Shown here one piece after another: positions 1,246-62,489 of a DNA stretch of 64,000 nucleotides. The position numbers and the translations under genes are program-made. The stretch comes from Dicyema japonicum (Eukaryota; Dicyemida; Rhombozoa; Dicyemidae): assembly GCA_011109175.1 (NCBI GenBank), contig RDEW01000004.1:768030-832029 (forward strand), in the 5' to 3' direction. Every line of letters starts with the position of its first letter. The first letter of the stretch is position 1. The notes under the pieces are model-generated. The model was not told the DNA's origin and did no database searches. It saw nothing but the letters and a program-made list of their open reading frames with translations.

Positions 1246-2137
1246 ATGGTGGAATGTTTGGCTTGCGGGATTGAGACCTCCCAGAAGCATTATAAATTAC
1301 CCATATGTTCCACGTGTAATTCGTTTTTTAGGTTCTAATTCTTATCATCCCCCAGATATAATGCCAAGCACCGTCGATATTCATTTTGCTACAGAAATGG
1401 GCACTGTGATGTTAACTTTTTAATAAAAGACAAATGTAAAGCTTGTCGACTCCAGAAATTCTTCAACGTGGGTCTCAGCTATGAGGGTTTCAATATTTTA
1501 AAACTCAGTGATTTACGACAATTATATCACGAAAACACCGCCACATGAGAAACTCGTGTACATCGATTCCATCATGGACGACGTATTCGAGCCTATAATT
1601 CGTAGATTATTACTTTTAGGACATTTTATCATTTTTTGAGGTCTGCCAAGTCCTTCGCTATGTCTCAGGAAATGAAAAGTTACACGTGGTTGAACTCAAA
1701 GTGGATTGAAACATTGATTCAGCAGGAAAAAATATTATGCTCGGCATCGGTAAGACTGCCGGTTTAGAATGTAGGATTTGCTGTATTACCGCTATTTCTC
1801 TCTGAGCATGAATTTGGTGATTAGTTGTCTCATCATATGTGAGTCCTCCCAAAATGAAGTATCATTCCACCAATCTTTGCAGATTTTTAACAATTTGAAA
1901 CATAGTTTGGATTTTTTGAATTTATCGTACTTGGATTTCAACTATTTTCGGATTATTTGCTTTTTTAGGTGCTACTTTCAAGATCATTCTGTGGGGGTTT
2001 ACATATATCACCATTATTTACAATTATTAGTTGTGAATTGTTCGCACAACAAAGAACGTGTCCGACAAATATTGCAATTAATTCCGGAAATTAAAATATT
2101 ATCAGAATTATTATATGAATATTTTAACGAGATATAA
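1246..2137 (+). CDS. divergent nuclear receptor (DNA-binding and ligand-binding domains)
   Basis: A ligand-regulated transcription factor of the nuclear-receptor family, expected to bind DNA in the nucleus. Splicing four micro-introns (24, 22, 23 and 25 nt; the first at 1332-1355) gives about 265 residues, and the spliced length is a multiple of three. Residues 4-69 form the two zinc fingers: Cys 4, 7, 21 and 24, then Cys 40, 46, 56 and 59. The frame ECLACG...HYKLPICSTCNSFFR is followed by CKACRLQKFFNVGL, which is the family pattern. The rest reads as a ligand-binding domain, with a helix-3-like stretch around FYHFLRSAKSFA and a helix-10/11-like stretch around RVRQILQLIPEIK. The ATG leaves three residues before the first zinc cysteine, so there is no A/B domain unless an upstream exon is missed. 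The P-box (CSTCNSFF) is not the usual CEGCKGFF. Family membership is fairly sure; subfamily is not. Confidence 0.8.
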
Positions 2138-2199
2138 TTCTTAATTTTTGATAATTATTATTTTAATATAAATTATTTTATTAAATCGGCATATCCTAT

Positions 2200-2750
2200 C
2201 CACTCACTTTCCTTGTGGGTCTCAACAAAGACCTTAGGATGATTGGAAAAAAACTCGAATGTATAGACAACCTGGAAGACTCAAGGTCGCATGCAGTGGA
2301 CCGAGACGTCTGGTGGAGAGGATTTTAAATCTTGTGGCACAAATGGCACCTTATTTAATACAACATTCTTTGGTTCTGTGAACGTTTGTTTAATAAGAAT
2401 ACCCTACCTTTTGGAACCACTCCAGATTGCCGCCCGACATTCTCTATGAGAACGAGAAGCACAGCGATTTTATATGAGATGTAGGAGGCTGTTTTGACAT
2501 ATACTTTGTCTGGAGCTGGGTACGACAGTGAACGTGGCCATGGAGGACTACATTATTCCAGGTTTCCTTGATCGACCGAGGATAACCCTACCTACCGTCC
2601 TTGATGAAGACATTAAGGAAATCGGGAGACGACTCATGGAAGGGGAAGAACTTGAAAGGCTACGAGACATGACAAAAAGTCGTCAAAAATGCAAAAAGTT
2701 AACTAGTAGTTTGATTTTCCATGTTGCACGTGCTTTAGTTTGATTTTTTT
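2200..2750 (+). mobile_element. L2 LINE fragments (two 3' ends)
   Basis: Two short pieces of the L2 reverse-transcriptase C-terminus lie in tandem. The first (about 2205-2345) reads GLNKDLRMIGKKLE. The second (about 2525-2743) reads AMEDYI then RPRITLPTVLDEDIKEIG, matching the better copy at 22.1 kb (AMEDYF, GRPRSTLPTTLNKDL). Both are 5'-truncated and broken. Confidence 0.6.
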
Positions 2751-6295: not shown

Positions 6296-6297
6296 AT

Positions 6298-9359: not shown

Positions 9360-9600
9360 TTCTTAGGCTGAAGAGTTTTCATAATGGTAATCTTCACCAG
9401 TGGATTTGGTCAGGGAGAAGATTGGAAGATCTCTTTCAACAACTCTGTCGTGCCAGAAGGACTGGTCACCTTCACGACCCCGAGATCTGTTTAACGAGAT
9501 TTGACCTTCGCTTAAAAATCCATCTTTTGGATTCGAACCCATGACCTTCAGATCCGATGTCTCAGACGTTACGACCAGCCAAGCGTCGCATAAAATAATC
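9360..9600 (-). repeat. tRNA-like SINE head, third family
   Basis: Read on the minus strand from about 9592, the sequence has an A-box-like TTGGCTGGTCGTAACG and a perfect B-box GGTTCGAATCC at about 9525-9535. No 3' acceptor strand pairs with GCGACGC, so it is not a working tRNA gene. It is most likely the head of a tRNA-derived SINE, and is the only such copy in the window. Confidence 0.4.
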
Positions 9601-11892: not shown

Positions 11893-12761
11893 ATGATTCC
11901 TCCCAACTCGTCCCTTTTAAAATACGACAGTCCCTATGTCGTTGTAAAGTCGACCGAGAAAATAAACAGCAACGTAAGCAGATTACTAAGAGTAGTCCAA
12001 GCCGTATAAGAAAGTCAAGGATGAACCAATGCTACCAGTTATCGGAAACAAAATGACAGCCCAGGATCGCCAGGTATTTCAAACTGAGGAAATTTTGAAT
12101 TCGATTTTACCCCCAGCGTTGAATTTTCCCATAAAAATTAGCGAATGGAAAGAAGACAACAAACTTTGGATACAGCAGGTCTCCAGTGCTCTAGCAACCA
12201 GACTCGACCTCATCAACTTGCAAGAAGAGCTTGACTCTCGGCTTAAACAACGACAAGCTCGCAAAACTGGTATTTGCACGATTCGTCGGGAATTGTTCTC
12301 CCAAACTTTTGGTTAAATTTTCCCGCTAAAATAGATGAATTGATTCGACAGGGGACCATAATCTGTCCAGAGAGAGGACTGCTTCTCCTCAGAGTCAGAG
12401 ATGAAATAAAAATGACTCTGGCGGCTTATCAGACTCTTTACGAAAGCAGTACCTCTTTTGGAGTGAGGAAGGCGCTGGAAGCTGACAGTGGGAAGGTTGA
12501 AAACGATCAAAAGGCTGATTGGGGAATTTACTTTAAGATCCTCGAATTGGAAACTCAGAAACTTCAGCTAGAACGAATGGTAAACGACTTAAAGGCACGT
12601 GGGGAGCTGATCGAGAAACGGGCTGCTGAACAGAGGCAAGTGGAAGATAAGAAACACCAGGAAGAGATACAATTTTTGAAGCGGACAAATGTGCAGCTAA
12701 AAGTCTCCCATATTTTACATTAAAGGCTCAACTAGAAGGGATCATTAGTCCCAAGAAGTGA
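11893..12761 (+). CDS. DNALI1: axonemal dynein light intermediate chain p28
   Basis: A subunit of inner-arm axonemal dyneins in motile cilia. Splicing introns of 22, 24, 23, 24 and 23 nt (one at 12312-12334) gives about 250 residues, close to the roughly 258 of the human protein, with a length divisible by three. It starts MIPPNSSLLKYDSP at ATG 11893, like the vertebrate N-terminus. The conserved core includes ILPP, LWIQQVSS, LKQRQARKTGIC, RRELFSQ..DELIRQ and RGLLLLRVRDEIKMTLAAYQ (in parts). A coiled coil follows, ending NVQLKAQLEGIISPKK. Two introns are in frame and visible only by alignment: one after ILPP, and one of 24 nt before ILELET that would be GC-AG. A ciliated organism follows from this gene. 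Confidence 0.92.
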
Positions 12762-13693: not shown

Positions 13694-15561
13694 ATGTTAC
13701 GTGATAAACTCGGCCAAAATGAAAGTCCAGTACATTTCTCAACCCAGAGACACTCAAGAGATCTGATTTCCCTCCTTACTTACATAAGAAAAAGTTCAAA
13801 GCTGTTTGACATCCGGCTGAACGTGGGGGGAAGCATTATTGAGGCCCACAGAATTGTACTTTGTGCATCATCCATGTTTTTCCGTAAAATGTTTCTCTGT
13901 GGAATGCGGGAATGCCGTGAAAATGAGATTGTAATTCAAAATGTGGACTTCCCTATCCTCCAAATCATCGTGGATTACGCCTATACAGGGGAGATATCCA
14001 TAACCAACGACAACGTGGAAGCCCTCATGGGCGCTGCCGTGCTCCTCCAAGTGCAGTCGGTGATTATCAGCTGCAATACCTTCCTTTCCAACAGAATGAC
14101 GTCATCAAACTGCATGGCCATTGCTCGTTTTGCTGCCAAACAGGAATGCCACGAATGCTCAACCCTATGGAAGAAGGCGGTAGAATTTTCGTTCTCCAAT
14201 TTCTCCGAGACTTCAAAATCTGAGGACTTCCTCGAACTAACAGAGCCTGAGTTGTACAGAATGCTGACGAATGACCGCTCATTTACTAGGGTAATTAGCT
14301 GAGTAATCGTGATAGTGTGAGGCTGAAATATTCGAGGCTGTAATTGGCTGGATTGGGCATACATTCACCACAAGGTTCGATAAACTGGAGAAGCTCATGT
14401 CCTGCCTTAACTTTAAGGACATTCCGGTGACATTTCTGAGACGACAGCTCACAAATCCCAAGAAAATCAATCAAGTGGAGTTTATGGAGATTTTAGACCA
14501 TCAAATTTCAAAATTATCTACATTCGTTGATTTGGAAGTTGGAAAACCCCAACTTTGAGCTGAATTGTTGCCACCAGAATGATCATGCGAAGGTGATCTA
14601 CGTAACTGGGGGATATATAACGTGAAATCAATGTCTCTTTTCGAGTGCTTCTGTCTTAAGAACAAGAGCTGGTACAGACTCCCTGATATCCCCGACGTCC
14701 GTAGCGGTCTCTGCACCTCTGTTACTCATCATTATTTGTACGCCATCGGGGGGAAAAACTCAAATTTTTTCCAGGGGAACGTGTATAGCTCAGTGTTTCG
14801 TTATGATCCCCTCACAAACTGTTGGAGTGAGTGCTGCAACATGCAGAGAGCTCGGTACAGGGCAGCATCGGTGGTAATTGACCACCAAATATATGTAGTT
14901 GGGGGGATGGCTGAGTCAGAACAGCTCAAATGTGTTGAGAAGTGAGTCTATATGTAATCCTTAGATATTCTCCCTCTGAGAATAGTGGACATATGTGTCC
15001 CCCATGGAGATTCCCAGAATTGGGCACTGCTGTGCTGTTCTGCAGAGACATCTTTACGTTATTGGCGGATCTTATCGGACCAGTACCTCGGAAAATGCCA
15101 GATTGAACACTGTCTCCCATTATTTTCCAGATAAAGACGTTTGGGTGGACGTTGCTCCTCTAAATTACCACAGAAGCGGGGCTGGTTCTATGTTTGGTTG
15201 TTATTGATAGGTTGTGTTGCAACAAACAGTCATATTTACGTGATTGGGGGACACGATGGACAGAACGTCATCGGATCTGTTGAGCGGTACGACCAAGTAA
15301 GTAACGAATGGACCTGTCTGCCCTCAATGCCTATTCCTGTGAGCGGTTTTGCCTGCACCCTCGTCTGTCCGGACATTATCTTCGTTTTCGGTGTCTTGGA
15401 GTCTCTGTAACCTAGGCGGCTACAATGGACATGAATTTATCAGCAAAATACAGATTTACAACATTGAGACGAGTGAGTGGACGTACCAACCCACTGACAA
15501 CTTTGGTAGGACGGGACACGGAATCACCATTGGGAACAAACCCCATATTATAAGCCAGTGA
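13694..15561 (+). CDS. BTB-BACK-Kelch protein (KLHL family)
   Basis: Family members are usually substrate adaptors of Cullin-3 ubiquitin ligases. The BTB domain is near residues 20-130 (FDIRLNVGG, AHRIVLCASSMFF, YAYTGEI). A BACK domain follows a 25-nt intron at 14291-14315. Then come Kelch blades with repeated IYVTGG / YAIGGK / YVVGG / YVIGG and W at the family spacing. Other introns are 22, 23, 26 and 25 nt. The spliced length lacks two bases to be in frame. Two sites fit single missing bases: a G run at 14608-14612 and AGTGGAC at 14983-14989, where consensus Kelch sequence would continue. With those bases it is about 582 residues, normal for the family. The last exon ends HIISQ-stop. Assignment to one KLHL member is not possible. 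Confidence 0.85.
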
Positions 15562-33740: not shown

Positions 33741-34400
33741 ATGATAAAAGCAGTGTTGATTTTCAATCTAGCAGGAAAGCCAAGATTGGTTAAATTCTAC
33801 ATAAATTACGTATTAAAGCTGTAATTTTAATTAAAGACAGAAAAGGAGCAATCCGACATCATCCAGGAGATTTTTCTGTCTGTTTCATCGAGAACCAACA
33901 AAGATTCTTCATTTTTTGAAGGGACAAGGTAGACACGTAGCTTATTACAGAATTTTTGGGAAACAGGGGCAACATACTGGTCTACAGAACCTATGCGACA
34001 CTGCATTTTATATTCTGCGTTGATTCCGTGGAGAATTACCTAGGAATTCTGGATTTGATTCACGTTTGTGTTTAAATGTAGGATTAGGTGTTTGTGGAAG
34101 TTCTGGATTACATTTTTACGAATGTTTGCGAGCTTGATTTGATTTTTCACCCCGAAAAAGTAACCGTGGCTCTCATTTTAGGTTCACATGATCCTCAACG
34201 AGATCATCGAAGGGGGACTCGTCCTGGAGGTTTCTAAGAAGGAACTTATCTCGAGGATCATGCAGATTGAAAAGATTGAACGACTCCATGTCCCCATTTG
34301 TGGGTTAATGTAGAGTGGACCTGTGGTGGACGCCAAAAGTGTATCGAACTCCAAATGGAAGAATATTTCCAATTTTGTTGAGTATTTTTCTAAAAAGTAA
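33741..34400 (+). CDS. AP3S1: AP-3 complex sigma subunit
   Basis: The small chain of the AP-3 adaptor, which sorts cargo from endosomes to lysosome-related organelles. Five introns of 27, 22, 24, 22 and 24 nt (one at 34160-34181) give about 180 residues; human sigma-3 has 193. Motifs: MIKAVLIFNLAGKPRLVKFY, EKEQSDIIQEIFLSVSSR, ILVYRTYATLHFIFCVD, LGILDLIHVFVEVLDYIF, NVCELDLIFHPEKVHMILNE and GGLVLEVS. The IFHPEK-VHMIL junction and GG(M/L)VLE are sigma-3 features, unlike sigma-1 or sigma-2. The spliced frame slips at 33951-33960, in a run of five T after a splice acceptor; relatives suggest two missing bases. It cannot be assigned to AP3S1 or AP3S2. Confidence 0.85.
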
Positions 34401-35062: not shown

Positions 35063-35401
35063 TCAATTAAGAAAATCAAAAACGCAGGAAGAGTCGATTT
35101 TTCCGTTGGAGAACGTGACCCCCTCAGATTTGAGGAGGTCAATCTTCTTTTCAATATAAATTCCACTTAAGTGCCCATTAAATCCCCCAAAAGATAAATC
35201 AGACTTTACAACACGGTGGCATGGCACGATTGGGGCACGTGGATTATTCTTCAAAGCCTGTCCCACAGCTCTGAATGCTTTAGGTCTTCCCAAAGCAACT
35301 GCCACGTCCTTGTAGGTCGACACCTTCCCTTTGGGGATTTGCTGTATCTTTTTATAGACCTGCTCTGCGAATGTATCATCATTAACAAGATCAACGACCA
35401 T
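35063..35401 (-). CDS. MGMT: methylated-DNA-protein cysteine methyltransferase
   Basis: A DNA-repair protein that moves the alkyl group from O6-alkylguanine to its own cysteine, once per molecule. The frame is unbroken for 112 residues from ATG 35401. It holds PKGKVSTYKDVA, the arginine-finger helix RAVGQALKNNP (Arg 44), and the active site VPCHRVV with Cys 61. The retained cysteine separates it from alkyltransferase-like proteins, which have lost it. Only the C-terminal DNA-binding and active-site domain is present; the N-terminal domain of the roughly 207-residue vertebrate protein is absent, unless upstream exons were missed. Confidence 0.85.
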   Translation of the reverse strand: MVVDLVNDDTFAEQVYKKIQQIPKGKVSTYKDVAVALGRPKAFRAVGQALKNNPRAPIVPCHRVVKSDLSFGGFNGHLSGIYIEKKIDLLKSEGVTFSNGKIDSSCVFDFLN

Positions 35402-38935: not shown

Positions 38936-41900
38936 AACAAAACACACATTATTTGTGGTTGCTAATATAATATTGATGACGTTGTGGTTCACCAAGAGGT
39001 GTCATTTGGTTGTGCCTGTGCCCTACACAGCACACATGAAAAAGAACCACATCATTTCCCTATCGTCTCTCTTCAAGGAGATCTCGATGGCGACCATTGA
39101 GCGGGCACGAAGCTTTCGCTCCCAAGAATCCCTCCTGACATCCGGTGACATTGAACTAAACCCAGGGCTGCAGAATAGACCCATCAGAATCTTACAACTT
39201 AACATCAATGGAATCACCTCGAAACATACCGAATTGGCTGAGTACTTGGTTAAACACCGTATTGACATTGCCCTTCTACAGGTGTCACGTTTGTCTGGCT
39301 TCTCCCAAACACCAAAATTCAAAAACTACTCTTTGCTCCGTTCTGAGCGATCAAATGGATCTCACGGCGGTGGCCTGGTCACCCTCATTCACAACTCCAT
39401 CCCATTCACGGATACCACTGACCACACATTGACAGCGGCTTCTGATAAACATATGGAATTGCTATCCATCACCATCAATATTATGTCAACTCCTTACACA
39501 ATTCTGAATATCTACATTCCCCCTTCGTTTTGCTGCCAGAAGAGTTACCGACCAAACCTAGAATTCCTTCAACTATACGAAAACATAGTTATTTGCGGCG
39601 ATCTAAACGCTAAAGATCCACTATGGTTCCGAAACCAGAATTCGGACCACAGAGGGAAACAAGTGATCTCTGAACTGGAACACCTAGTGATATTGAATAA
39701 CCCCCGCCAACACACGAGATGTGGAACACGCCCTGGGGATCCTAACACGTCTCCCGACCTCTCCATATGCTCAGCTCCCCTTGCAAAATCGATCTACTGG
39801 GATGTCAGATATGACTTACCCTCAGATCATAACCCTATTCTGATCGACATCTTCTTGCATTTCGGACGAACTATGTCGAGGCGAACCTATGTGAACTACA
39901 AAAGGGCGAGATGGATCGACTTCACGGTTGACGTCGAAACGTCGCTGGAAAACTTCTCTGTGAATAATTTTACCTCTCCAGACAAAGCCATTGCACATTT
40001 CAACTCAGCCATCCTTTCGGCGGATAGAAAGCACGTCCCTAAAGGATTCATCCATGATTACAAACTATTTTTCAACAAAGAAATATTGGATCTCATCTGT
40101 GAGAGAAGACGCCTAAAACGTTCCCGAACAACCAACCAGCAACTCCAAGATGAAATTTCTTCCCTAAACAAGAAGATAACCCACCTCATTACGGAGCTCA
40201 AAAAGGAGAAGTGGTCCACTTTCGTCTCTCGATTGAATCCAAAATCAAAACCCCAAAGTTTCTGGAGATTTATCAGAGAAATACAATCAAATCAAACCGA
40301 ATCGAGCACAACCCATGGAGGTAGACTTGGAAAGGACAACCAAACGAAAGATTTCCACTGCCAGGCAAATGACTTGATGACTCACTATTGCAAAATGAGT
40401 CATATTCCAATGAATAAAGAAAATCGACCTCATATTACTAAACCCCCAAGGGTAACAAAGGCACGATTCGAAGTATCAGTAAGTCATGTTCAAAACCTCA
40501 TTACAAACTCAAGAAACTCACCAGCCACGGGACCCGATCGGATCAGCATATTCCACCTAAAGCACCTCGGTCCAAACGGGCTCTTGGCACTTAAAGATAT
40601 CTACGAATTCTCCATCAACAGGTGTTTCATCCCGATGTTATGGAAGAAGTCGAACATTATCCCAATACTCAAGAACAACAAAGCCTCCTCCTTGCCCTCT
40701 TCGTTCAGGCCAATTTCCTTAACATCTGTTGTCTCAAAAATCCTCGAAAGGATCATTCTTAACGAAATCACCCCCTACCTCGACCTCTCCGACTCACAAC
40801 ATGGTTTCCGTCCTTTACACTCGACCACCACGCACTTACTGACACTAACCCAATACATCTCCAACGGTTTCAACAACTGCAAACCCCCGGAACGAACTGT
40901 CTTGGCCTCTATTGACCTAACTAAAGCTTTCGACAGAATCTCCCGTGTGGTCCTCTGCAACAAGATCTATTCTTCAAATATTCCCTCTGTATGGAAGTCA
41001 TGGCTCACAAATTTCCTCTCGGGAAGACTGGGTCATACGTGTCTATATTCAAATCTATCAAGATATCGACTCCTACCAAACGGTGTTCCCCAGGGATCAG
41101 TCCTTTCACCCTCACTTTTCAACCTTTACGTCAAAGACATCCCAACAACCCAAAATACGTTACTATTGACATATGCCGATGATCTAGTAATCGCATCCAG
41201 GAGTGGCGATGTTCGACTGGCCACCGAAAAAGTGCAGTACCACCTGAACTTGCTATCCGACTGGATGAACTTAAACTGGATGAGTGTTTCCACCTCGAAG
41301 TCATCAGCTACCCTGTTCACAACCGATCGAAGACAATTCAACCTAAACCCCACACTCTCGTTGGGTGACGAACCACTCCCCTTAAATAAATACCCGAAGA
41401 TCCTTGGAGTTGTCTTCGATCCTTCACTCTGTTTCAACAGACAAGTGGAGGAAGTAATGACAAAAGCCAAGCGGAAACTTAACATATTACGGGCAGTAGC
41501 TGGCCACTCAAACGGTCAGCAAAAAGAAAACTTAACTCTTCTCTACAAACAGTTCATCAGGACTACACTCAACTACGCCTCACCAAGTTGGGCCCCCTCA
41601 ATCTCCTTGTCCCTTTCTCAAGAACTGCAGAAAGTGCAAAACTCGGCGCTGAGAATAATAACTGGCTGTTTAAAGTCAACCCCCACCGACCATTTACATT
41701 GGGAGTCGAAAATCCTCCCGCTCTATGACCACCTGGAAATGCGTAATTTACAATTCCTACGGCAGTCGTTCGACCCGAATCACCCAGTTCACGCTTTGCT
41801 AAGTAACAATAACCGCAGATACATACGCAGGACCCTCTTTGACCTACAAAGAGCCTTGTCGAAGATCACCCCCCCTCAAGAAGACTCAACTTGGACCCGC

Positions 41901-42223
41901 CGAATCCATGATTTTATCTCAACACGGGCCATTAGGACACTTCAATATAACAAAGTCTTGGAGCGCTTCCCCCCTGATATCAGTCCAACGGAACAATCGC
42001 TCCCGAGGAAGATCAGAATCGGACTGGCTCGCCTACGATGTGGACACCACCCTTTTCTGGCTGGCAGAGTAGTTCGAGACCTTTTTCCCTGCCCTGGACC
42101 ACCGGATGCAAAAGTCGAGGATCTCTGGGAGCGGCCTGTCCGGACTGCACGCTCTTTGATGGTCGCCGGCTTCCCACTTGCTGGCGAAGCCGGGGTTTTT
42201 AATTTAATTTAACAAAACACACA
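38936..42223 (+). mobile_element. L1 LINE, full-length ORF, with 13-bp target-site duplication
   Basis: A non-LTR retrotransposon bounded by AACAAAACACACA at 38936-38948 and 42211-42223. One ORF fills it, and the insert ends in a short TTTAA-type tail with the stop codon overlapping the duplication. The sequence is more GC-rich than its flanks. Confidence 0.88.
38976..42212 (+). CDS. L1 LINE polyprotein: APE endonuclease and reverse transcriptase
   Basis: About 1,078 residues from the ATG at 38976, without stop. A 2A-like motif (SGDIELNPGL) precedes the endonuclease. Endonuclease motifs: LQLNINGITSK, SHGGGLV, GDLNAKDPLW, SPDLSIC and SDHNPIL. Reverse-transcriptase motifs: FRPISLTSVVSK, QHGFRPLHSTTT, ASIDLTKAFDR, NGVPQGSVLSPSLFNLY, TYADDLVIAS (catalytic YADD) and ILGVVFDPS. 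The C-terminal part reads ALRIITGC..TDHLHWESKILPL, typical of Jockey-like elements. Two changes stand out: the 2A motif ends in Leu, not Pro, and the usual LQE of the endonuclease is LQV. The intact frame suggests recent insertion. Which host factors it uses is unknown. Confidence 0.88.
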   Translation: MTLWFTKRCHLVVPVPYTAHMKKNHIISLSSLFKEISMATIERARSFRSQESLLTSGDIELNPGLQNRPIRILQLNINGITSKHTELAEYLVKHRIDIALLQVSRLSGFSQTPKFKNYSLLRSERSNGSHGGGLVTLIHNSIPFTDTTDHTLTAASDKHMELLSITINIMSTPYTILNIYIPPSFCCQKSYRPNLEFLQLYENIVICGDLNAKDPLWFRNQNSDHRGKQVISELEHLVILNNPRQHTRCGTRPGDPNTSPDLSICSAPLAKSIYWDVRYDLPSDHNPILIDIFLHFGRTMSRRTYVNYKRARWIDFTVDVETSLENFSVNNFTSPDKAIAHFNSAILSADRKHVPKGFIHDYKLFFNKEILDLICERRRLKRSRTTNQQLQDEISSLNKKITHLITELKKEKWSTFVSRLNPKSKPQSFWRFIREIQSNQTESSTTHGGRLGKDNQTKDFHCQANDLMTHYCKMSHIPMNKENRPHITKPPRVTKARFEVSVSHVQNLITNSRNSPATGPDRISIFHLKHLGPNGLLALKDIYEFSINRCFIPMLWKKSNIIPILKNNKASSLPSSFRPISLTSVVSKILERIILNEITPYLDLSDSQHGFRPLHSTTTHLLTLTQYISNGFNNCKPPERTVLASIDLTKAFDRISRVVLCNKIYSSNIPSVWKSWLTNFLSGRLGHTCLYSNLSRYRLLPNGVPQGSVLSPSLFNLYVKDIPTTQNTLLLTYADDLVIASRSGDVRLATEKVQYHLNLLSDWMNLNWMSVSTSKSSATLFTTDRRQFNLNPTLSLGDEPLPLNKYPKILGVVFDPSLCFNRQVEEVMTKAKRKLNILRAVAGHSNGQQKENLTLLYKQFIRTTLNYASPSWAPSISLSLSQELQKVQNSALRIITGCLKSTPTDHLHWESKILPLYDHLEMRNLQFLRQSFDPNHPVHALLSNNNRRYIRRTLFDLQRALSKITPPQEDSTWTRRIHDFISTRAIRTLQYNKVLERFPPDISPTEQSLPRKIRIGLARLRCGHHPFLAGRVVRDLFPCPGPPDAKVEDLWERPVRTARSLMVAGFPLAGEAGVFNLI

Positions 42224-43670: not shown

Positions 43671-43850
43671 TAAATTTGTGATTTTATTGAAAAAAAGTCT
43701 CCCTACTCATAACTAGTCAGAAGATGAGGACATGAATAACCCAGTTTGTTTTTTTTTCTTAATAAAGTCTCCACAATTATTTTGTTTAAAAAATTGTTCT
43801 AGTGGGCCTCTTTGACACTCTATTGAAATGGTGAACTTACTGCAAGAACA

Positions 43851-45146: not shown

Positions 45147-48100
45147 CTAAATTCGACCACTCAGAACAGTTTTAAAATGGTCGATAGTATGCTTTACGGA
45201 GTTGAATATTCGATTCCTGTACTTAATTCCTTTCCAAGTAACTGATATGTACTCTTTCCTTACGGAATTGTTAACGAAATAGCAAATGACAGCCTTACAT
45301 GGATACTCCTTAAGAAGACTCAGTCCATAAGGAATTCTGGATACATAAACAGCCAAACCTATTCGCCTGTCGTTTCTTCTCAGCCAACAAATACCGTTCC
45401 ATCTGTCGACTATCATCACTGTCTATGAAATACTGAAAGTTCATTATATCACGAATATAAATCACAATCGACTGCAAATATCTCGATATAATCTCGTCTA
45501 AGTCCTCAAATACCTAAATCATAGAAAATAGCTACTTCTCCTTCAATCTTCAGGACCGACCCTAGTCGTAAGTCAACATTTTCCTTCCCGGACTCCACAA
45601 TGTCCACGTGAGAGTAGATCCCGTCCGAAACCTTCCAGGACATTGTGAGGTTACAGATTCCCTTGCTGCTGGGTCTGAAGACGCAGTCGCCTACTTCCAT
45701 CCCTTCCAACATCTCACAACACTTCTTATAGGATACTTCCTTGTAGTTGTGGTGGATTATCAGCCTCCTCACATATCCCTCTGCCAATAAGCAAATCCTC
45801 ACTTTTTAAGCGCTTCTTTTTACGAGCCACGTGGTCTCTCTTTTCCTTTTCTTCCGCATCGTAGTCATAATATTTATCCTTCCTGACTCCATAGGTCCCT
45901 CCTTTGTCGTTTAGAACAGATCCTTTCGATATAAGACCACATTGGATCTTTTTGAAATCAAACGAGGTAACACGTGCGCAGACAACTGCCCCAATCTACG
46001 GTTACAAACCCAAGTACCTTGATTCTTTCTAAATTGTCGACTCGCCTATCGCTGACGTTCCGGGAGTGAATGAACCCGACCAATCCGTTATCAAAGGCTA
46101 CTCTTAGTCCAATGGCACTCCCAGGGCAATCCTTCAGATGAAATTTGACCTACAATAAGTCATCCTCTACCTCGTTAATCTCACCAAATGAACTTCTACG
46201 GCAGAAAGGACACTCAAATGACCCAGAATTTGGATCCTTCCGGGCTCTCATGCTTCTAATCTGCTCATAACTGGGCCTCTTCCGGGCGTACCCAATCACC
46301 CGACACGTGACAAGTTTTCCGATGTACAGACTCTCTGGGGTCTCGTTTAGAAGCTTGAAGAAAAGGTCCTGGCTTGATATTCTCTTGAATTCTGCGTCCT
46401 CAGTGATCTCTTCGATCAACTGTTCACGAATATCAAGCAAGGTGTCGATTTTCTTGCCAAAATTCTACATAATGAAGAGGGGTACCTGCTTCTCCAGCTC
46501 AGCACTGAAGGCTTCGAGGTCAAGATCCCTGAGTTTGTCCTTTGAACCCATCAATTCATCAATAATGAGTGAATTATCAGCGTCCCTGTCATCTTCGTAG
46601 TCCAAGGCGTCGATCACCATCTTCCTGACCCAGTGGTACCCCTCCGGATGGATTCCTGTAGTAGTCCAGAGGCTCAAACTGGTCAGAGTATAGTCTACAA
46701 TCATAAATTTACCACACCCGTTGTTTACACAGTAGTACTGATTTATCAAAAGGAACCCAGAACAGTTGACAAACACTGTGGGGCCGATCTTGTAGTTTGT
46801 GACCAGTTCTGTACGACAGATCACATCCCTGTACTCATCCTTCATAAAGATCTCTGCCTTCTTAGGTCCTAGTCCACCCACAAATTGCAGAAGGTTAAAC
46901 ACGTGGGGAAAATGGCGGGCCCTGTTTATGTCAACCCCGGTCCTGTTCACAAAGCTTATCACTTGTCGCTTCAATTCTCTCCCCAAAATATCCCGGTTAA
47001 CATGGTTCTAACGTAAACACGTGGATTACCTGCATGTTATGGTACTGAAATGACAAATAGTCCTCCTGTTTGTTCACCAACTGGCTATACTCTGCCACTG
47101 GGTCCACCAACAGTCTGGCCAGGGAGATGGCTTCTCTGCAGATCACTGGATAGTCCCCCAGTTCAGTCTACCATTAGAAATGTCTCTACCTCGCTCTTTC
47201 TGGAAAAGGAATATATTTTTGATAATTCATTGTCAAACAGCTCCGCGTCGACATCATAATCAACGGATTTTGCCGCCAGCCTGACATCATCCACCACAAA
47301 AGTTGCCAGTCTATCCTCGGTAGAAACAACAATCATTGATGGCTTGTGAGTGTCGATAAACTCTGCCAGCTTATTAAGGGTAGATTTCTAGGTAAGAACA
47401 GTCCCAACCTTGTGATCCTGGAAAGGACTGAATCGTCCTTCAACCAAGAAAGGCAGTTTGAGCACTTCTACGACTTCCCCGTCAATGTCTACCACGGCTG
47501 CAAAGGAGGCATTGTCACTTGCATTAGGTAAGCAACTAACCGAGATGATGTATAAGCAATAGCCATGACGTTATTATCAGACTTGTTCTCTTTCGTTCTA
47601 ACACAGCCAAAGTATGGACCTCCACTTATCATCCCATTGAGTCTGTCGCAACATTTCTACAATGACCAAACTAAACGACCTTAATCACTGAGTTAGAAGC
47701 CTCGGAAACTAGCTCTTGTTTTATCTCTAGTAATATCTTAGGGAATATGATTTTGGAAAGGGCGTTAGCAAGAGCAGACCGTCTCAGACTACTCCATTCG
47801 TTGTCTTCTCCGCAAAACATGGAGGTTACGAGCTGTTCACTTGTCCCGTTTGTCTCATCGAATGAAATGATAAGCTTTATCAAACCGTCCGTTTCCGCGG
47901 ATGTTAAACAGAGAAAACACTCATCCTCGAGCTCTGTAAGTGGTTTGTCCTTCAAATATCTCATTGAATAGCAGGGATGACCCTCATCCATCTCCCTCAG
48001 CCCAGAGGGGGTTAACCTCACCGAGACAACCCCACGTGGATACATGACAGTCCGCAAATAACGGATCAAACTGGGTTCTGATGCAATTTCCATCGAAAGC

Positions 48101-49604
48101 ATGTATTTTACAGCCTTCAAGACCTCTTTCACAGTCCCATGACGTCTCCCGGTGTATTTAACCGCTATTTCTGATGGCGATTGTGTTTCATCGAGCTTTA
48201 TTTTTGCAAATTCTAGCTCTCCCTTAACAACAGCGTCAATGTTGTCAGAACTGAGTCCGCACATCTTCACAATGTCCCCCAATCCGTCATCAACGCACAT
48301 TCTGTGAGTATTTCTTACGATTGCCGATTTAATTTTTGGTCCATCAGAGAAGTAATCGTTCATTGATTGGATCTCATGTCCATAGTGTAACATAAAGTAA
48401 GCATGCCAGTCCTTGAGTTCTAGCTCGTTCTCAGCCCACTCAATTCTTCCACTTAAACTACCAAAATACCGCTTAATGAGGTTATCAGTGATATCTCTGC
48501 AATTTAAGGATCCATTCTCGAATTTGAGGCCCAAGAACTGCTTCATCCTGCAAAACAGGGTCACAATCGAGCTCCGAAAAGCCACAAAATGCCTCCACTT
48601 GTCGTCCCAATCACACACGGTCCAAAGCGAGTCCTCATCGAGCACAGGACTGAACAGCTCCTTTCTGTACACGGCTATGAAGGGCACCTAAATTATTTCA
48701 GTGAGAGTACCTCGACTTTACTGTTGTGAATCAGATCCAACACATTCTTAATTCGTATAGTGAACTCCTCAGCTGAATATTTATTCATTCTCTCCGAGAA
48801 AGCAACTGAGCATGTCTAAAATTAGCATTTAGAGGACCATTCTGCTGAGAGGGGCTTTGGAGAATGCGTGTCTGTAAATCCACGCGGTCTCCTTTTCCAG
48901 ATCCTCAGGGGACATGGAGACCATGGACTTCCCGATAAAACGTTCTGGGAGGTCGATGCTCTTCGTTAACTCCTGTTTTTCTGCACTATGGTCCGCAGGG
49001 GTATCCTCAACATCCGAATCATAATCCACACCGAATATTTGCTGGGCCTCCACCAGTTGTCTTAGTAAAGGACAATTCTTACTCGTCGTTTATCAGGTTG
49101 TCGTTCCCATGGACACAGGGTTTCCCGTATTCGTCTACCACAAAGTCGTCCATGTCGTCACCGTCGTCAAATTCTGTGATCTTGCGTTTTTTGTTTTCAT
49201 TTCCACTGTTTTGGGTTAACTTCCCTCGACTTCGTCATCAGAGCCGATTTTGACTCGTTTAAGCAGTTTCTGGATGAACAAGGAAGATACCTTTCTATCG
49301 AACTTCCGGCCTGTGTTCTCTTCCAAAAGAAGAATATCGTCCTCCATAATCTCGTCGTCGAGACCATCACTTGACAGCTGTTCTGGTTCTGACTCATATT
49401 CGTCTTCTTCGGAGTCGTTGATCAAATCTTTCATTTCCTCACGGATTTTGTCTTCATCCTCAGATTCTTCCTCACTGGAAGATAGTCTTCGTCTTTTAGA
49501 TGTTCGGAGATCATTATCTGATAAATCATCTTCCGACTCGATGGCTTCGATATCAAAAAAATCCTCGACTCTGTTAGATTTATAAAATGCAACAACAACC
49601 TCAT
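45147..49604 (-). CDS. SUPT6H: transcription elongation factor SPT6
   Basis: A histone chaperone and elongation factor that travels with RNA polymerase II. At least 15 introns of 21-29 nt are resolved (for example 46465-46485, 46150-46170, 47008-47029). Domains in order: acidic N-terminus (SSSEEESEDEDK, LINDSEEDEYESEP), the linker QQIFGVDYDSD..DLPERF, the helix-turn-helix and YqgF-like core (VPFIAVYRKELFSP, WDDKWRHF, NVMAIAYTSS, FAAVVDIDGEV), the HhH region (NRTGVDINRARHFPHVFNLL, FVGGLGPKKAEIF), DLDLEAFSAEL, an S1 domain (GLRVAFDNGLVGFIHSRNVS), then tandem SH2 domains (GDCVFRPSSKG, LTMSWKVSDGIYSHVDI; KEYISVTWKGIKYRN). It ends with HFKTVLSGRI-stop. The C-terminal tail after SH2 is absent. One junction near 49195-49220 is not explained by a normal intron; a base error is likely. 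The assigned start is MRVEDFFDIE across a 29-nt intron. Confidence 0.92.
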
Positions 49605-49732
49605 AACACAAACTTATTGATACTTGATACTTATATTTAAATTTAAAAAAATGTGAATATTTATATATTTTATTTTTTTTAAATTAAAAAAATTATGAAT
49701 CGAATTAATCTCTTTATTAATTTAAATTAAAT

Positions 49733-51782
49733 TTATTTAGCCAGTCCTTTCAGACAGGGGGCAAAAGAGCAGGCTTTGATCAACAAATGCCTTTCTGTGT
49801 CTCACGGAAACTCACTTTTGTCTATGTGGGTGGATGTGAAGAAGGCTTACGATTCAGTTGATCATTCTTACCTTGTCGAGTGCCTACACAGTCTGTGTAT
49901 GCCTGTGTGGTTCATCAGCTTTGTAGTGGCTGTGATGAATAGGTGGAGTATTCATCTGAACTATAATAGGCACCGGATAGGCGAGGTAAAACTCAAGAGG
50001 GGGATCCTTCAGGGGGATAGCATGTCTCCGCTACTCTTTGTTCTCTGTTTGGAGCCATTGAGTCGCCGCCTCAATGACCGGTTTGAGCAAATACCAGTTC
50101 ATTGTGAAGGGGTCTGTTTCAGTACAAATCACCTTCTTTTTATCGATGACTGAAGATGTATGCTCGAACAGCCGAGGAGCTCTACTCCATGGGGGTCTGT
50201 GCCAGGGAATTCTTTGAGAGTATAGGCTAGATTTGAATTATTCAAAGTCTGCGACTAACACGCAAGTATGTAGCGAGTTAGTAAGAGTCCTAGAGGAACA
50301 CGAAGGATATAAGTATCTGGGTGTTACCGAATCTCCAAAGTCCCTTATAATGCCTGAGACAAAGCGACAAATTACTGAAGGCATCCGTAAAAGAGCAGCG
50401 TTATTGTGTAAGACGTCTCTAAATGCAAGGAATTTGTTCCTAGCATTAAATGAGTATGCTGTCTCGCTGCTAAACTACTACATAGGTGTTGTGGAGTTTG
50501 AGCCCAAAGAGTATGATGAGATGGATGTTATGATCCGTGGAGTACTCAGAGAGAACCATGTCCATGTGTTGGCAGCCAATAAGGAGAGACTATATTTACC
50601 CCGTGATAAATTCGGCCGTGGACTGTGTGGAGTAGTCCAACTAAGTGAGCGTATCCTAATGCGAATGCACGACACCCTGATAGCTGGGTCAAGTGTGTCT
50701 GCTAGGAAGCACGCCATAATAACGACCGAGAAAACACGGGCAACCCACCTAGGCACTATCAGACCTTTTTTGTCTGCTAAGTATGGTGTTGATGATGGTG
50801 GGCTAGTAAATGTGAAGGCGTTGATCGAATTACAATATAATAATTTGATGGAAAAGATCAACTTAAAAAGCCTTCATAAGGTCCTCTTCAGAGCATTGGA
50901 CAACCCACATGTCGACCTTAAGTCGTCGACAATATGGCTAAAATACGGTGACAACTCACCTCGATCGGAGGCGTTGTACACGTATATGCAAGACCGCAAT
51001 ATTTTTTGGGGTCGATCAACAAATACATGTCCCCACTGTAAGTCAAGGAGCATGTCGGTTGATCATTTAGCCACTCGATGTGGATCCATGCTCTGCCACG
51101 ACTATGTGTGGAGGCACAACGAGGTAGTAAGGAGTCTTCATCTTCTACTATGCAATAAGTATGGTATTCGCCACACCAGAAAGTTGCGGACTCATAAGGT
51201 GCAATCTGTAGTAGAGAACACCAGGGTCCAAATTAAGGTAGACAGTGTTATCCGTACCTCGGTGCTAGTCAAGCACAATAAACCGGACATTGTGGTACAC
51301 GATAAGGAGTCTGGCCAAGTCCTTATCATAGAGGTTGGCATCACGTCTCAAGACCGTTTGCAGACTGTGGAGGTGGAGAAAAAAAGGAAGTATGACTTTC
51401 TTGCAAACGAGATGGGGCAGATGCTTGGTTGCAAGGTCCTCGTTATTCCTATAGTAATGACGTGGGAAGGAATTGCAACAAAGTACCACAAGGGTTATCT
51501 GAAGCAGTTGGGGGTAGATAGGAAGCTCCAGGCCTATCTACAGTCCACTGTGTTAAAGCGGACCCTAGAGAGCCTGACACTGGAGTATAGGAGGCAGAGC
51601 CCTGAGATGCCATATGGGCAGAGGGTTCAATTAGACAAGCGCTCTCGGAGTTGTTTCAGCAACCAGAATCGAACCTGCCTGAGGAGGCTGGCGAACAGGC
51701 AGGCGAGGAAGGTTGTTGATTATAAATATATTAACTTTTTTATTGTTTGTTAAATTAAAGTTATTTAGCCAGTCCTTTCAGA
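49733..51782 (+). mobile_element. restriction-endonuclease-type LINE, 5'-truncated, 22-bp target-site duplication
   Basis: A 22-base direct repeat at 49733-49754 and 51761-51782 bounds the element. It opens inside the reverse transcriptase (WVDVKKAYDSVDHSYL, LQGDSMSPLLFVLCLEPLSR, LLFIDD) and continues into a long frame (50233-51753). That frame has a C-terminal zinc knuckle (CPHCKSRSMSVDHLATRC) and PDIVVHDKESGQVLIIEVGI, the PD..E type nuclease of R2/R4/NeSL-like elements. Two one-base losses break the frame, just after IDD at 50151 and at 50229. Confidence 0.8.
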
Positions 51783-56258: not shown

Positions 56259-58673
56259 TTAAGAAATGTCAGAAACGACCTTAAATTGATAAAAGAAGGC
56301 AGAGTCTTCATCGAAACAAACAAGTTTCGTGTCATTTCCGCATAATATTATCTTTTTAATTTGCTTCACAGTGGAGAGAGCTGTGCCAGGTTGAATCTCG
56401 TCATCCTAAAATTAAATTCTCCCTCAAAATACGGAATTTACAGCAATTAATCGTCCCGTTGTCGGAGGTAACGATAAAATCGGAATTCCGTGAAATGGCG
56501 AAAACCCCGTTATAACAGTTTCGATTTCCTCCAAAAATATCTAAACTCAATCAACTCCGAACAGTAAATTAAGTCTAATCTGGAGCAATGGTTATCCATC
56601 CACGGAATAACGGAGAAATCATCGAACGTGACTTCTTTCTGCGTTACTGCGTTCCTGAAACGTCAGTTTGCCGCAAACCAAGCGAATACTTTATTCTGGA
56701 AGACATGAGAGCTCGCCGCAATGTTCACCCAATCCCAAGACCATTCAATGTGGTCAACCTGGCAGTCCTCCAGCTAAAAGATTAAGAAATTCAAAGCACG
56801 TGGAAATCTGACATTTTTTCGTATTTCTTTCCGTAATTTTTGTAGTGGAAAATGCTGACAGTCCCGCAATCGTAAAACACGGCCAACTTTCCGTTATTCG
56901 GACTAAACGAGGCCTTCACTGCTGAAGCCTGTCCTTCAACCAAAGAACACTTTTCCGACAAATTGAGGGACTCCAATATAACGAATCTTCCGTAGTTCGA
57001 CCCAACAAACACCATCTTCCCGTCAAAACTGACTGAAATGGACATAACCGGGATCTGACTACTTTTTCGGAATGATACCTGCATGTCGACAGATTTGATG
57101 CTCCTGTTTGTGATTAGGTCCCATTTTACTATTTTCCCCAGGTTATCCCCGCTAATTACAAAGTGCTGCTTCCGGGAAACGGACAAATCCGTTATTTTGC
57201 CGCTGTGACCCTGAAATTCTAAATCAGTCAACTTGGAAAATTTCGGAAATCTGAGAATTCTTGAGCTCAAAAATCGCATTGTTCGAAGCCATGAAATAAA
57301 GTTTGTAAAATTTGTAGCAAAAACAGGTCACAACTCCATCGTCAACCTCAATTTGGTAAAAACCCTAAATTACCGTAAAAGTCGCGATGCATTGCTTATT
57401 GGCAAGTCTCCACTGTTTGATGAGCCTCTCCCTGCATGCTGTGACAACGCAGTCAGAAACTAAGGCCATGGCGGTTATCGCTGAGTTGTGGGCTTTTTCT
57501 ATCTGAAACAACATTTTTTTAGTTTCTAAATTTGCTCAGTAGCTACCAATTTTCCAGCATTCCAAAGAACCCTCGGAGTCCCCCAGAATCAAATCTCCCT
57601 TCAAGTCAAAAATCGCAGTTTTATGGTAACTTTGAGTATTTTTCTACCACGTGTTTTTTAATTTACTTTATCTGCCTTAACTTTGCGCAATTCGTTCCTT
57701 TCGATCTCAAAAAACCACAATTTTCGATTTCCTATCACAGCAAACACATTTTCCTTGCTGGGTGAGTAAACCAAACTGAAGTCCCGTAAACTCAAATCCT
57801 TTAAATTGATCCCTCATCTCTACAAGTTTGATTTCCGCGACCCTCCGTTCGATTTTCCAGTTTATGACCCTCACAAAAGTTCCGATGTCCTGAAGAACAG
57901 CAACCAGGAACCTTCCGTTCGTCTCAAAGTCAAGAATATTTAAACAGCGATCGAAGAAAAGCTCATAGAGCTCAACCTTTTAATGGATTTGTCGAATTTG
58001 ATGACTTTCAAGGTCTTCAAAGTTTCCAAGTCCCATATTCTTACTAAAACCTAATAAATATCATTTTCGACTGACCCGGTCCGTTACTTCCGACGAGGCA
58101 CAAATCGTATTATTCGGATGGAAGCAAATTCTGTGGAATCAGTAAAATTATACTTTTCTACTTTGGAGAGATGCTGGGAGTATATTCTCTGCTGGTATTC
58201 CACGGGATCGAACAAAACCACAAATCGGCCCACGTGATAAACTAATTCCTGAGACAGGTTCATAAACAGTGATGACCCCCTTCCGTCGAAAGAGTAACTA
58301 AAATTATTGAATTATGTAACATCCATTCGATTTGTGTCTCCCTGTCGGGTTTTCTGGTTGAGGCAAAGCAGGTTTTTTGCGAAAATTTCGAAAAGTTTTT
58401 TCTGGTTAATCCGCATTTATCAGACACGCGCCTATTAGAGCTTAAATAATACAATTTTGTTTATTCTTCATTTTCTCAGAGTACAATTCGCAGTAAGTTT
58501 TTTCCCGAGCTGGAATTTTGTGACCTTGAGATTTTTTTAGTTTGACAGTTGTTTTTCCATTCGTTGAAGTTGTGGTTTAAGCAATTTAGCTTGTTCTCAC
58601 TGTGGGCGATCCGTCGTTCAATGTTGATGATCTTGTCGGCCAATATATCCTCAATGCTAAAATCCTTGTTCAT
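56259..58673 (-). CDS. EML/EMAP-like WD40 protein
   Basis: Microtubule-associated proteins of this family bind tubulin through a HELP motif and WD40 propellers. The ATG at 58673 starts a coiled coil (DFSIEDILADKIINIERRIA). After introns comes the HELP-like entry RETQIEW..GYSFDGRG, LVYHVGRFVVLFDP, SKVEKICFHPNNTI and RVLVRIWDLETLKTLKVI, the EMAP pattern. Later blades include SLVYSPSKENVFAVIG, LILGDSEGSLECWKI, HNSAITAMALVSDCVVTACR, GHSGKITDLSVSRKQHF, VDHIEWSWDWVNIAASS and NGVFAISRNSDFIVTSDNG. More than ten introns of 21-27 nt are seen, one at 57644-57666. The joins before the HELP region and near 56420 are unsettled. The end is FYQFKVVSDIS-stop. The plus-strand frame at 56588-56785 is a shadow of this gene. 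Confidence 0.75.
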
Positions 58674-58706
58674 TTTTTGCGTGTAATGAAAATTTGAGTA
58701 ACAGCA

Positions 58707-59324: not shown

Positions 59325-59625
59325 TTAAAGCCTTTTCACGAGAGCCATAGTATCTATAGCTCCGCATAGGCAGGACACACACTTTATTTAAGTAAAGAAC
59401 AGTTAATTTTAACTAATCGTAGAACCAAGGAATGATCTTCACTTCTTTTTTTCATTTTCTTGTGTGAGTGTCCTTTCTAGACAATCCAGTTCCGCAGTGA
59501 GTATCCACTGATGACGGCGTCACTCGTCAAACCCTTTCTGCATCGTAGATGCGTGGAACCTTCCACGAGATTCTAACCCGTAGCCTAAGCCACTTAGCCC
59601 GACACCTAACCACTATGCCACCCGA
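59325..59625 (-). repeat. SINE-A copy, most complete
   Basis: The minus-strand head is GGGTGGCATAGTGGTTAGG (A-box) to GGGTTAGAATCTCG (B-box). The body has GACGCCGTCATCAGTGG. The tail is TATGCGGAGCTATAGATACT then ATGGCTCTCGTGAAAAGGC. About 300 bp. Confidence 0.82.
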
Positions 59626-59979
59626 TTTAACTACTAGAACCAATTAGTGGTGACACATTTTGCGGTATTCGTTCGTTTGGCCATTCGATTAGTTGGTGTT
59701 GAGTGATTCTCATCGATTTATAGTGAATTACTAAGCAAATTAAATAAGCCATAATAATTAAATTATTGGAAATTATAGATAATCCGGCTAAATTAATTTC
59801 TAAGTCCACCTGTACCACGTGGACTTTTGGAGACAACAAAATACCGGGGAGAGACTTTTTGAGATTAACGATCGTTGTTCAGAGGAGTATTGTAGTGTGA
59901 CAGCCGAAATACGGTCAAACATCATTCACTATGGGTGGAAGAGAAGTTCGAGATTCTCTGTCTACCTTGTATTCAAAAT

Positions 59980-60835
59980 TCAGCTTTAACGTGGAGTTAT
60001 GTGGTTCGCCAATTCTGTAAGCTTAGAGATTGACGACAGTCAGAAAAGGGCATTCAAAGTTACGAAGCGATTGACTCTGGAAAGGACTCCTCTCCAATTC
60101 ATCTTGAATCCCTATCCGTAAGAACCGATAGGCACTCTCGTTCAACTGTGAGCATCGGGTTATGCGCTAGCCGATACGTGCTTGTGTCGACTTGAGGAAG
60201 GGGCATTGAGCGAGATGAGGTCTCCGCTGTGGTGGAACACCCTCAGATTTTTGAACACTTGGTGGGATCTCGTAGAAAGGGAAAAGACCAAAAAACCTCG
60301 ACGTGAAACAAAATTAATTAATTATGACTTATTTAATGGTTTATTTGATTTTAATTTAAAATAAAATTTCACGTTGACTTAATGCGCCCTCGTCGTGTTC
60401 AATCAACTCCTAAAACCGACGATTGAGTACGCTTGTGCCTCATGGGCCTATGGAGCTTCGACATCAAATTCACTCGAGATCAATACCCTAATTGGCAAAC
60501 TAGCACGTCAAACGAATCTACCCCCCGATCTTTTCCTCCAATGCTTGACCACGCCGCAATCAAAAATAATGGCTCCGGCTTCATCTGTCTGTGTGGCTAA
60601 AAAACAAGTCGTTTCTTCTATTCAAGGCTAAAGGCCTCAAATACACGAAATTTGGGGAAAAAACCCACTCCTCTTCAAACTCTAATGAAAGATGATTGTC
60701 GTCTATTCAGGAAAGCCGTGGGTACTCTGGAGGAACACAGGAAAAACCTCTCGATCCTGTTGAGGCGTAGCGGGATCACTTAATTAGTTGGTTTACTCCT
60801 TCTTTCTTGGTGTTCCCTTTTCGGGGTTATTAAAT
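59980..60835 (+). mobile_element. L4 LINE 3' half
   Basis: Broken frames carry QKRAFKVTKRLTLERTPLQF, LLKPTIEYACASWAYGAS and a C-terminus before GCGGGATCACTTAATTAGTT at 60,772. The stretch 59626-59980 holds nothing I recognise. Confidence 0.55.
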
Positions 60836-61154
60836 AAATAATAACCTTGTGGCATTCTTAAAATGAATCTTAAATACCAAGAAAAACTTGAAACAGCTCT
60901 TCTCGAATTTTTCTCATAGATTCTTAGCAAAAAGGTTCGGAACGAGCGTTGAAACTATAGCTCGAATAAAAAAGGATATAATGCCACTTGAGATTGGTGG
61001 GAACTTCAAATAATTCATAACAAAGACACAATCTGAATGATCAAAGCGACGAAAAGGTAGCAGAAAGTAAACGATTAGCAAATAAAACCATTATAAATTA
61101 TAATATGAATTTTTAAGTAACCCCCGTTAATTTATAAATTATAAAACAAGATTA
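60836..61154. other. AT-rich intergenic stretch
   Basis: Downstream of the WD40 gene. No supported feature. Confidence 0.3.
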
Positions 61155-62489
61155 TTACCTCGACTTCCAAACCTAAAGATTAGACGATTGCAACCTTAAT
61201 CATTCCATCAGTCCCTCCGGAATAGAAACAATCGCATTTGCTGGACAAAATCAATTTGCTAACGGTTCCCCCATGACCGTACACCCAGGACAAGTGTCTG
61301 CCAGTCAAAGAATCCCACAAATTTATTGATCCGTCCATGTGACCAGAAATATAAAAAGCCCCTTGAATAAACCCCCACCGAACAACCGCTGAATGAGAAA
61401 CATGTCGCAGAAACAGGGGACAAAACGGATTTGCTGGAAAAATTAGTCACTTTGGCACACGAACGGTTGTCTATCAACCAACTCTAACGTTTATTCAATG
61501 CCACATGCCTCTCCCAGTATGGACCCCATTAGGAAGTAGTTATCGTCGGGATGCCATATTATATCCGAGAGATGTTTTACATTCTGAAAAGTCCGAACAA
61601 ACTTCTTGGTTCGGAGGTCCCACAACATCGTGTCATGCCTGTCCTACAAATAACCTGAATTAAAACCGACGTTAAAAATAAGGATCCCGGATTTTTCGGA
61701 AGTGTTATGAAATCTATTTTAGCCACGTGTCCGTTATTGGCATACAATTCAGTTTGACCCTCGGTGTCCATAAGGGTACACTATCCCCCATAGTACCCGA
61801 TAAGAACCTAAGATTATACCTAAGCAACTAGATTATCTGAATAATAATAAGCCGACGTTGATAAATTTTCAGAAAAATGGAAATTCACATAATCATCCTG
61901 CAAGTATTGCCAAGTCATCAACGTTCTGTCTTTACCACTGGAAATTATATCTAATGTAACGAAATTAGCAGAGATTTCCCTAATGGAGAGAGAATGCAAG
62001 AATTGAGACCCTTTATCTCCGATTCTTTCTTGGTCAGAGTTTCAGAAGTCGGGTCAAAAACACCGTATTTTGAGTTCTTTGATATTAAAAATTTCTCACA
62101 TCAAAAATGCACCCAATTTTATCTTCCCAGGACAGAGACATCTCCAAAATGCTCTCATCGAGTTTGTATGTTTTCTGGGAGCTGATTTCAGCCAATTTTA
62201 GCTCACTCGAGTTGATTTTATCTGAATAGAGCAACGGATTACTTTCCACGTCAATGTCAGGCAACAGATTCCTTAATTCATTTTGATATTGGTCTATTGA
62301 TTCCTCCTTATCAATGCAAGAAGCGATGGTAACTGAGCCTGACATTCTCTTTGAAGAAAAATTTTCGGGTTTTTGTGGGTTTTTTAATGTTTTTGCGTTT
62401 TTCAGTCGAACTTCGTTGGCAGAATCTATTGAGTTCTCATGCTTGGGATTTGAGTCAATAACTCCAGACTTCGCTCTCTTCCAGAACAT
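61155..62489 (-). CDS. WD40-repeat protein, possibly THOC3-like
   Basis: WD40 propellers are scaffolds, so the exact role is uncertain. ATG 62489 opens a polar N-terminus (MFWKRAKSGVIDSNPKHENS). Introns of 23, 30, 23 and 22 nt (the last at 61173-61194) lead through blades with VTLDIISSGKDRTLMTWQYL, GHVAKIDFITLPKNPGSLFL, TSDRHDTMLWDLRTKKFVRT, LSDIIWHPDDNYFLMG, FYISGHMDGSINLWDSLTGR and YSGGTDGMIKVWKSR-stop. The middle blades resemble THO complex subunit 3, which works in mRNA export, but the long N-terminus does not. Two stretches (about 61480 and 61800) are not cleanly spliced by eye. Confidence 0.6.

Follow-up and report, generated by a model that had tools for sequence, protein, structure and literature searches.

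What are the segments of 21-28 nucleotides (nt), beginning with GT and ending with AG, that break the reading frames of host genes in a 64,000-nt stretch of the Dicyema japonicum genome, and how are they removed? This stretch (the window) covers positions 768030-832029 of contig C126 in an assembly of 64.67 Mb and 191 contigs. We modelled its genes with a finder that scores codon use and permits GT..AG skips at a cost, and found most of the modelled cellular genes to be broken up by short GT-AG introns, far beyond chance. The initial annotation had called them GT-AG micro-introns in host genes, and this was borne out by controls on the SPT6 gene and by Pfam and Protein Data Bank (PDB) matches that run across the exon junctions. 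A spliceosomal nature is backed by their ends and length, by protein matches that continue from exon to exon, by a signal resembling a branch site and by the presence of U1, U2 and U6 genes. On these grounds, all drawn from sequence, we consider it very probable that the segments are U2-type spliceosomal introns that have shrunk to a near-minimal cassette of ~22-23 nt.

We began with SPT6 (45147..49604, minus strand). A first model of 1,306 residues, joined over 15 skips, matched human SPT6 with an E-value of 8.9e-191 (640 bits); the refined model, with 16 introns, matched it with an E-value of 5.9e-207 (693 bits). A protein search with SPT6 returned eight matches at 21-24% identity, listed without names. 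The region of homology, residues 155-1312, is covered by two PDB stretches, and 13 of the introns lie inside it. Four of these are 21 or 23 nt long (48688..48710 and 47657..47679, both 23 nt; 47388..47408 and 46465..46485, both 21 nt). CTAAT is present in those at 48816..48837 (22 nt, with the A 6 nt before the end), 47518..47540 (23 nt) and 47168..47189 (22 nt), the last of which also fits the genome-wide pattern AGGTA..CTAAYNNTAG described below. The intron at 47008..47029 (22 nt) contains TTTAC and that at 45996..46017 (22 nt) GTAAC. The remaining four are at 46150..46170 (21 nt), 45802..45823, 45514..45535 and 45337..45358 (22 nt each).

The SPT6 gene also served for controls on splice ends and length. 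When skips were limited to 20-24 nt, GT-AG ranked first among the 256 possible dinucleotide pairs with a score of 106.1, while the remaining 255 pairs had a mean of 33.5 (s.d. 2.9) and a maximum of 54.9. With skips of 20-27 nt, GT-AG again scored 106.1 and the best of the others reached 76.2. A looser version of this control (18-36 nt) discriminated weakly, with GT-AG at 126.0 and AA-AG next at 114.9; the tighter band was decisive. We then fixed the ends as GT-AG and moved a 5-nt length band through 17 placements between 10 and 62 nt. The band of 19-23 nt restored the gene with 13 introns and a score of 106.1, and the runner-up, 22-26 nt, scored only 49.2.

We also assembled a homology set, in which an intron had to lie at least four residues within a single Pfam or PDB match. 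Sixty of 85 introns, from 18 genes, belong to it: 30 come from the window (SPT6 13, EML 8, AP-3 sigma 5, DNALI1 2, BTB-Kelch 1, nuclear receptor 1) and 30 from the rest of the genome. All but one are 21-28 nt long, and thus 59 of 60 are under 30 nt; the median is 23 nt, the commonest lengths are 22 nt (20 introns) and 23 nt (16), and the exception is 68 nt. Because 47 of the 59 short introns have lengths that are not multiples of three, their retention would shift the frame. The 12 that are multiples of three all hold an in-frame stop, from which we draw no conclusion because the finder seldom removes an intron of this kind unless forced to. The exon end upstream tends to AG (A at -2 in 58%, G at -1 in 62%), and on the 5' side of the intron there is little preference past GT. 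An acceptor described earlier as TTTAG-like proved a loose description: TAG ends 35 of the 59 short introns and TTTAG only 13.

In the window, the gene models that contribute to this set include an EML-like (WD40) gene (56663..58673, minus strand) with 13 introns and a match to the Pfam family Beta-prop_EML in one stretch at residues 130-382. Eight of its introns lie inside homology (58131-58153, 58044-58071, 57923-57945, 57799-57823, 57644-57666, 57526-57546, 57347-57373 and 56774-56799); for the last, the underlying match is below the family cut-off. The AP-3 sigma gene (33741..34400, plus strand) has six introns and matches positions 1-140 of 142 of Clat_adaptor_s in one stretch, which encloses the introns at 33810-33836, 33882-33903, 33929-33950, 34064-34087 and 34160-34181. 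DNALI1, an axonemal dynein light chain (11893..12761, plus strand), has three introns, two of them (12312-12334 and 12703-12725) within a match to positions 1-186 of 187 of Ax_dynein_light (E 7.7e-73). The BTB-Kelch gene, with Pfam BTB, BACK and Kelch domains, has three introns in the part at 13694..14945 (plus strand), and the one at 14291-14315 is inside homology. Finally, a 24-nt intron at 1332..1355 (plus strand) interrupts the DNA-binding domain of a nuclear receptor, whose joined exons match positions 2-69 of 70 of zf-C4 in one stretch. The "at least 60" introns first claimed for the window were not fully reproduced: six gene models hold 43 (SPT6 16, EML 13, AP-3 sigma 6, DNALI1 3, BTB-Kelch 4 in two models, nuclear receptor 1). 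A spliced length divisible by three held for DNALI1, which has a complete frame, and for the nuclear receptor the first intron only was joined. Visual inspection shows micro-introns in the stretches of GCM and chitinase too.

Two approaches addressed length with fewer assumptions. A flat model without length preference, run on 264 kb with 15-45 nt allowed, called 64 introns, of which 52 are under 30 nt and 51 fall at 20-28 nt, with peaks at 22 nt (15) and 23 nt (13). Independently of the finder, we collected 142 kinase exon matches genome-wide; 12 of 26 neighbouring pairs join within five profile positions, and the DNA surplus over the profile in these 12 is 22 nt in five, 23 nt in three, 26 nt in two, and 13 and 38 nt in one each. 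Consensus patterns searched across the genome with no regard to gene context were swamped by background, although AGGTA..CTAAYNNTAG placed 17 of its 52 matches at 21-23 nt versus 7.4 expected (p 6e-4).

We next asked whether introns of this size hold a branch site. The claim that most lack room for a usual one was unsupported: a TNAY motif recurs whose A precedes the end of the intron by 6 nt. The gene finder never scored branch positions. When the 59 short introns were aligned at their 3' ends, A occupied position -7 in 59% (35 of 59, versus 18.3 in decoys), T position -9 in 51% and T position -3 in 59%. As controls, each intron was shuffled, and GT..AG decoys of matching length were drawn from the window and stretches L009-L028. 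A TNAY whose A precedes the intron end by exactly 6 nt was found in 18 of 59 introns, compared to 3.4 in shuffles (maximum 11 in 2000 rounds) and 2.3 in decoys; with the A 5-8 nt before the end it was found in 34, compared to 13.2 and 9.6. The signal was present in both halves of the set (10 of 30 introns in the window, 8 of 29 outside it) and persisted when seven introns with weaker matches were left out (16 of 52 versus 3.1 in shuffles at 6 nt, maximum 11 in 1000; 31 of 52 versus 11.6 at 5-8 nt). Of these seven, four lie in a WD40 propeller whose best matches are to other families of propellers, and one each in the second EML propeller, the first RRM of U2AF (as judged ahead of the family-level match) and SQLE, matched by a general FAD family. 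A larger set of 137 introns, less strictly checked and cleared of retrotransposon genes, duplicate loci, stretch L045 and low-support models, gave 36 versus 8.2. Measured from the 5' end, the A of the 34 motif introns lies at positions 15-21, in 31 of them at 15-18 and in 16 at position 16. From this A to the intron end the pyrimidine fraction is 0.78, or 0.72 without the motif's own Y, versus 0.54 upstream; with only six bases in that interval, there is no room for a normal polypyrimidine tract. We take this A, at -7, as the probable branch nucleotide.

One alternative, which we regard as improbable, is that the A at -7 reflects base composition and that the branch point has no set place, in line with what has been published on dicyemids. 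The motif is indeed degenerate, and a 2008 survey of 41 dicyemid introns (median 25 nt, with the weakest 5' boundary known) recorded no branch-point signature (PMC2483917). However, that survey counted hexamers anywhere in the intron, ignoring position (PMC2483917), and composition by itself yields the 3.4 and 2.3 occurrences of the shuffles and decoys rather than the 18 observed.

The genome also encodes the components expected to read such signals. U2 RNA has 25 genome matches, 22 of them over the cut-off and six of the 25 on contig C115, and the branch-recognition sequence GTGTAGTATC (GTAGTA) was present in all 10 loci read. U6 has 10 matches, nine over the cut-off, with ACAGAGA in the one copy read. 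For U1 there are 11 matches, none over the cut-off (the best scores 69.0 bits versus 69.5), and ACTTACCTG lies near the 5' end of the one copy read. We take these U1, U2 and U6 recognition sequences to be the canonical motifs. A gene for the U2AF large subunit is present as well: its best single exon scores 82.6 bits, and splicing lifts the match to 331.7 bits in one stretch, over the family cut-off of 310.3. The first U2AF model, which placed false introns in coding sequence and missed a long intron, was rejected; when longer introns were allowed, a 68-nt intron was called. This intron (stretch L039, 1064-1131) sits among micro-introns within the gene of a splicing factor. A single U12 RNA gene was found at C68:163471-163599 on the minus strand (85.4 bits versus a cut-off of 53), and its 5' part is presumably canonical. 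The U12-type intron pattern (TATCCTT at the 5' end, TCCTTAAY at the branch) was not enriched, with 27 matches versus 25 in the backward control. Given the U12 gene, the minor spliceosome may survive despite introns that are mostly too short for U12-type signals.

Several observations weigh against reading these segments as U2-type introns of near-fixed size and must be set beside the evidence above. GT-AG ends in the homology set hold by construction. The models behind it favour 21-27 nt, and those of EML and AP-3 sigma also favour A at +3 and T at -3, which partly biases both the length histogram and the preference at -3; in addition, the modelled genes themselves supplied the training data for the codon scores. 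Fourteen of the 26 kinase pairs are spaced otherwise in the profile, with surpluses that range between -26 and 225 nt and include one of 22 and one of 23 nt. The total of 52 matches to AGGTA..CTAAYNNTAG is below the 145 of its backward control, and some matches are repeat copies; GTAAGT..TTTAG genome-wide gave 59 matches versus 87 in the control. Finally, as 25 of the 59 short introns have no TNAY at 5-8 nt, the motif is weak.

With these reservations, the U2-type reading predicts the following order. The cassette would consist of GT, ~11 nt with little base preference, the TNAY branch site, and 6 (5-8) nt to the end including AG. The branch A would lie mostly at intron positions 15-18, ~15 nt from the 5' splice site. 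U1 would recognize the AG|GT junction, with a preference that is largely exon-side; the canonical branch-recognition sequence of U2 is predicted to pair with the TNAY motif; and the AG ~6 nt past the branch A would be used as acceptor. Removal of the segments at the RNA level, and the manner in which the spliceosome would tolerate a 15-nt spacing, are what we infer from this arrangement. More tentatively, and with somewhat less than even confidence, we suggest a rigid cassette: intron identity would be set mainly by geometry (an A 6 nt before the end and ~15 nt after the 5' splice site) and not by strong sequence. The genome would do so while retaining canonical U1, U2 and U6, a U12 RNA, and a U2AF large subunit for which hardly any polypyrimidine tract is left as a binding site.

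Two further explanations deny removal by splicing. The segments could be cut from DNA in body nuclei as internal eliminated sequences, an idea that draws on the 24,065 circular contigs reported for a dicyemid assembly (PMC6543705) and on sizes of 22-28 nt that resemble those of Paramecium eliminated sequences. We consider it very unlikely. The ends are GT-AG and not TA-TA: in the SPT6 control at 20-24 nt, no other pair exceeded 54.9, and TA-TA, the ciliate-type boundary, was outside the best six pairs. A nearly fixed TNAY and the AG|GT exon context also suit splicing. Least credible of all is translational bypassing, in which ribosomes would hop over segments retained in the mRNA: bypass elements do look like short non-coding breaks in open frames, yet hopping would not explain why the segments have GT..AG ends, lie in AG|GT exon contexts and carry an A at -7 that resembles a branch site, and U1, U2 and U6 genes are present.

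Other features of the window provide context for the spliced genes. The intronless exception among its genes is an O6-methylguanine methyltransferase-like gene (35063..35401, minus strand; Pfam DNA_binding_1), in which no intron was called; the last part of UBE2W, the part modelled, is also intronless. An internal contrast to the spliced genes is the 1079-codon open reading frame of a reverse-transcriptase element (38976..42212, plus strand; Pfam RVT_1), in which three of four finder settings called no intron and the fourth called one of 25 nt; the finder also called false introns in other element reading frames. Reverse-transcriptase elements and fragments lie at 38976-42212, 49731-51753, 43850-44679, 28934-29484 and 22990-23349, with RVT_1 confirmed in the first, and translations of the fragments resemble an element in stretch L017. 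At ~9530-9600 and 59560-59640 two stretches resemble tRNA and contain a box similar to GGTTCGAATC; they may be tRNA-derived short interspersed elements; ARAGORN called no tRNA within the window. In the genome, animal-type domains were identified for a ligand-gated channel, Ezh2, the nuclear receptor and the axonemal dynein light chain, and 18S genes were located on contigs C53 and C117.

Micro-introns were first published for dicyemids, minute animals parasitic on octopuses and their kin, as early as 2007, and are in themselves a known phenomenon; Ogino 2010 reportedly describes them as well. Published values are a mean of 26.2 nt (n = 16; PMC2222250), a median of 27 bp with two thirds under 30 (PMC6543705) and, for D. 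japonicum, a mean of 38 bp in a genome of 67.5 Mb, estimated at ~65 Mb (PMC6736024); in the orthonectid Intoshia the median is 57 bp (PMC6543705). The genome analyzed here resembles published dicyemids in its very short introns, ~5-6 per gene, and in being an animal genome of ~65 Mb, and its GC content is 37.2% over 200 kb and 39.6% in the window, compared to 36.7% for Dicyema japonicum. Together with the animal-type domains, these figures are consistent with a dicyemid host. Some other animal with very short introns is an unlikely alternative: the introns here are shorter than those published for dicyemids, but genome size, GC content and intron size all come near dicyemid values. It differs in intron length, with a median of 23 nt and a mode of 22-23 nt against 25-27 nt in published dicyemids and the 38-bp mean of D. 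japonicum, and in its position-locked branch signature, a feature reported absent in PMC2483917. We know of no published dicyemid branch-point signal in the open-access literature. What is added to the known picture is a somewhat shorter mode, a branch signal at an almost constant position and a U12 RNA gene. The branch signal qualifies the published claim that dicyemid introns show none, and it is a usable feature for gene annotation in such genomes.

Among other systems, Stentor coeruleus offers a parallel, by analogy, for fixing the branch position while sequence relaxes. Its introns of 15-16 nt have a fixed branch A (position 10 of 15), 5 nt before the end, without a strong motif, and its U2 and U6 are canonical, with U2AF2 listed (PMC9505925); it is a ciliate, whereas here an animal has introns of 21-28 nt in which the A is mostly found at positions 15-18, with 6 nt left to the end. 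Type B introns of Trichomonas vaginalis (23-25 nt) are alike in size and in a branch site near the 3' splice site (PMC12316389), but that protist is intron-poor and its CTAA is near-constant, in contrast to the many introns per gene and loose motif found here. Human short introns that need Smu1 and RED (PMC6692369) or RBM17 (PMC12862383) share the problem of a short distance from 5' splice site to branch or a short pyrimidine tract. In human splicing the 5' splice site and the branch must be ~50 nt apart, and shorter spacing is aided by Smu1 and RED (PMC6692369); the ~15 nt proposed here may be the shortest such spacing in any animal. An animal with ordinary-looking U1, U2 and U6 that manages with ~15 nt is a natural test of the factors that lift the ~50-nt limit.

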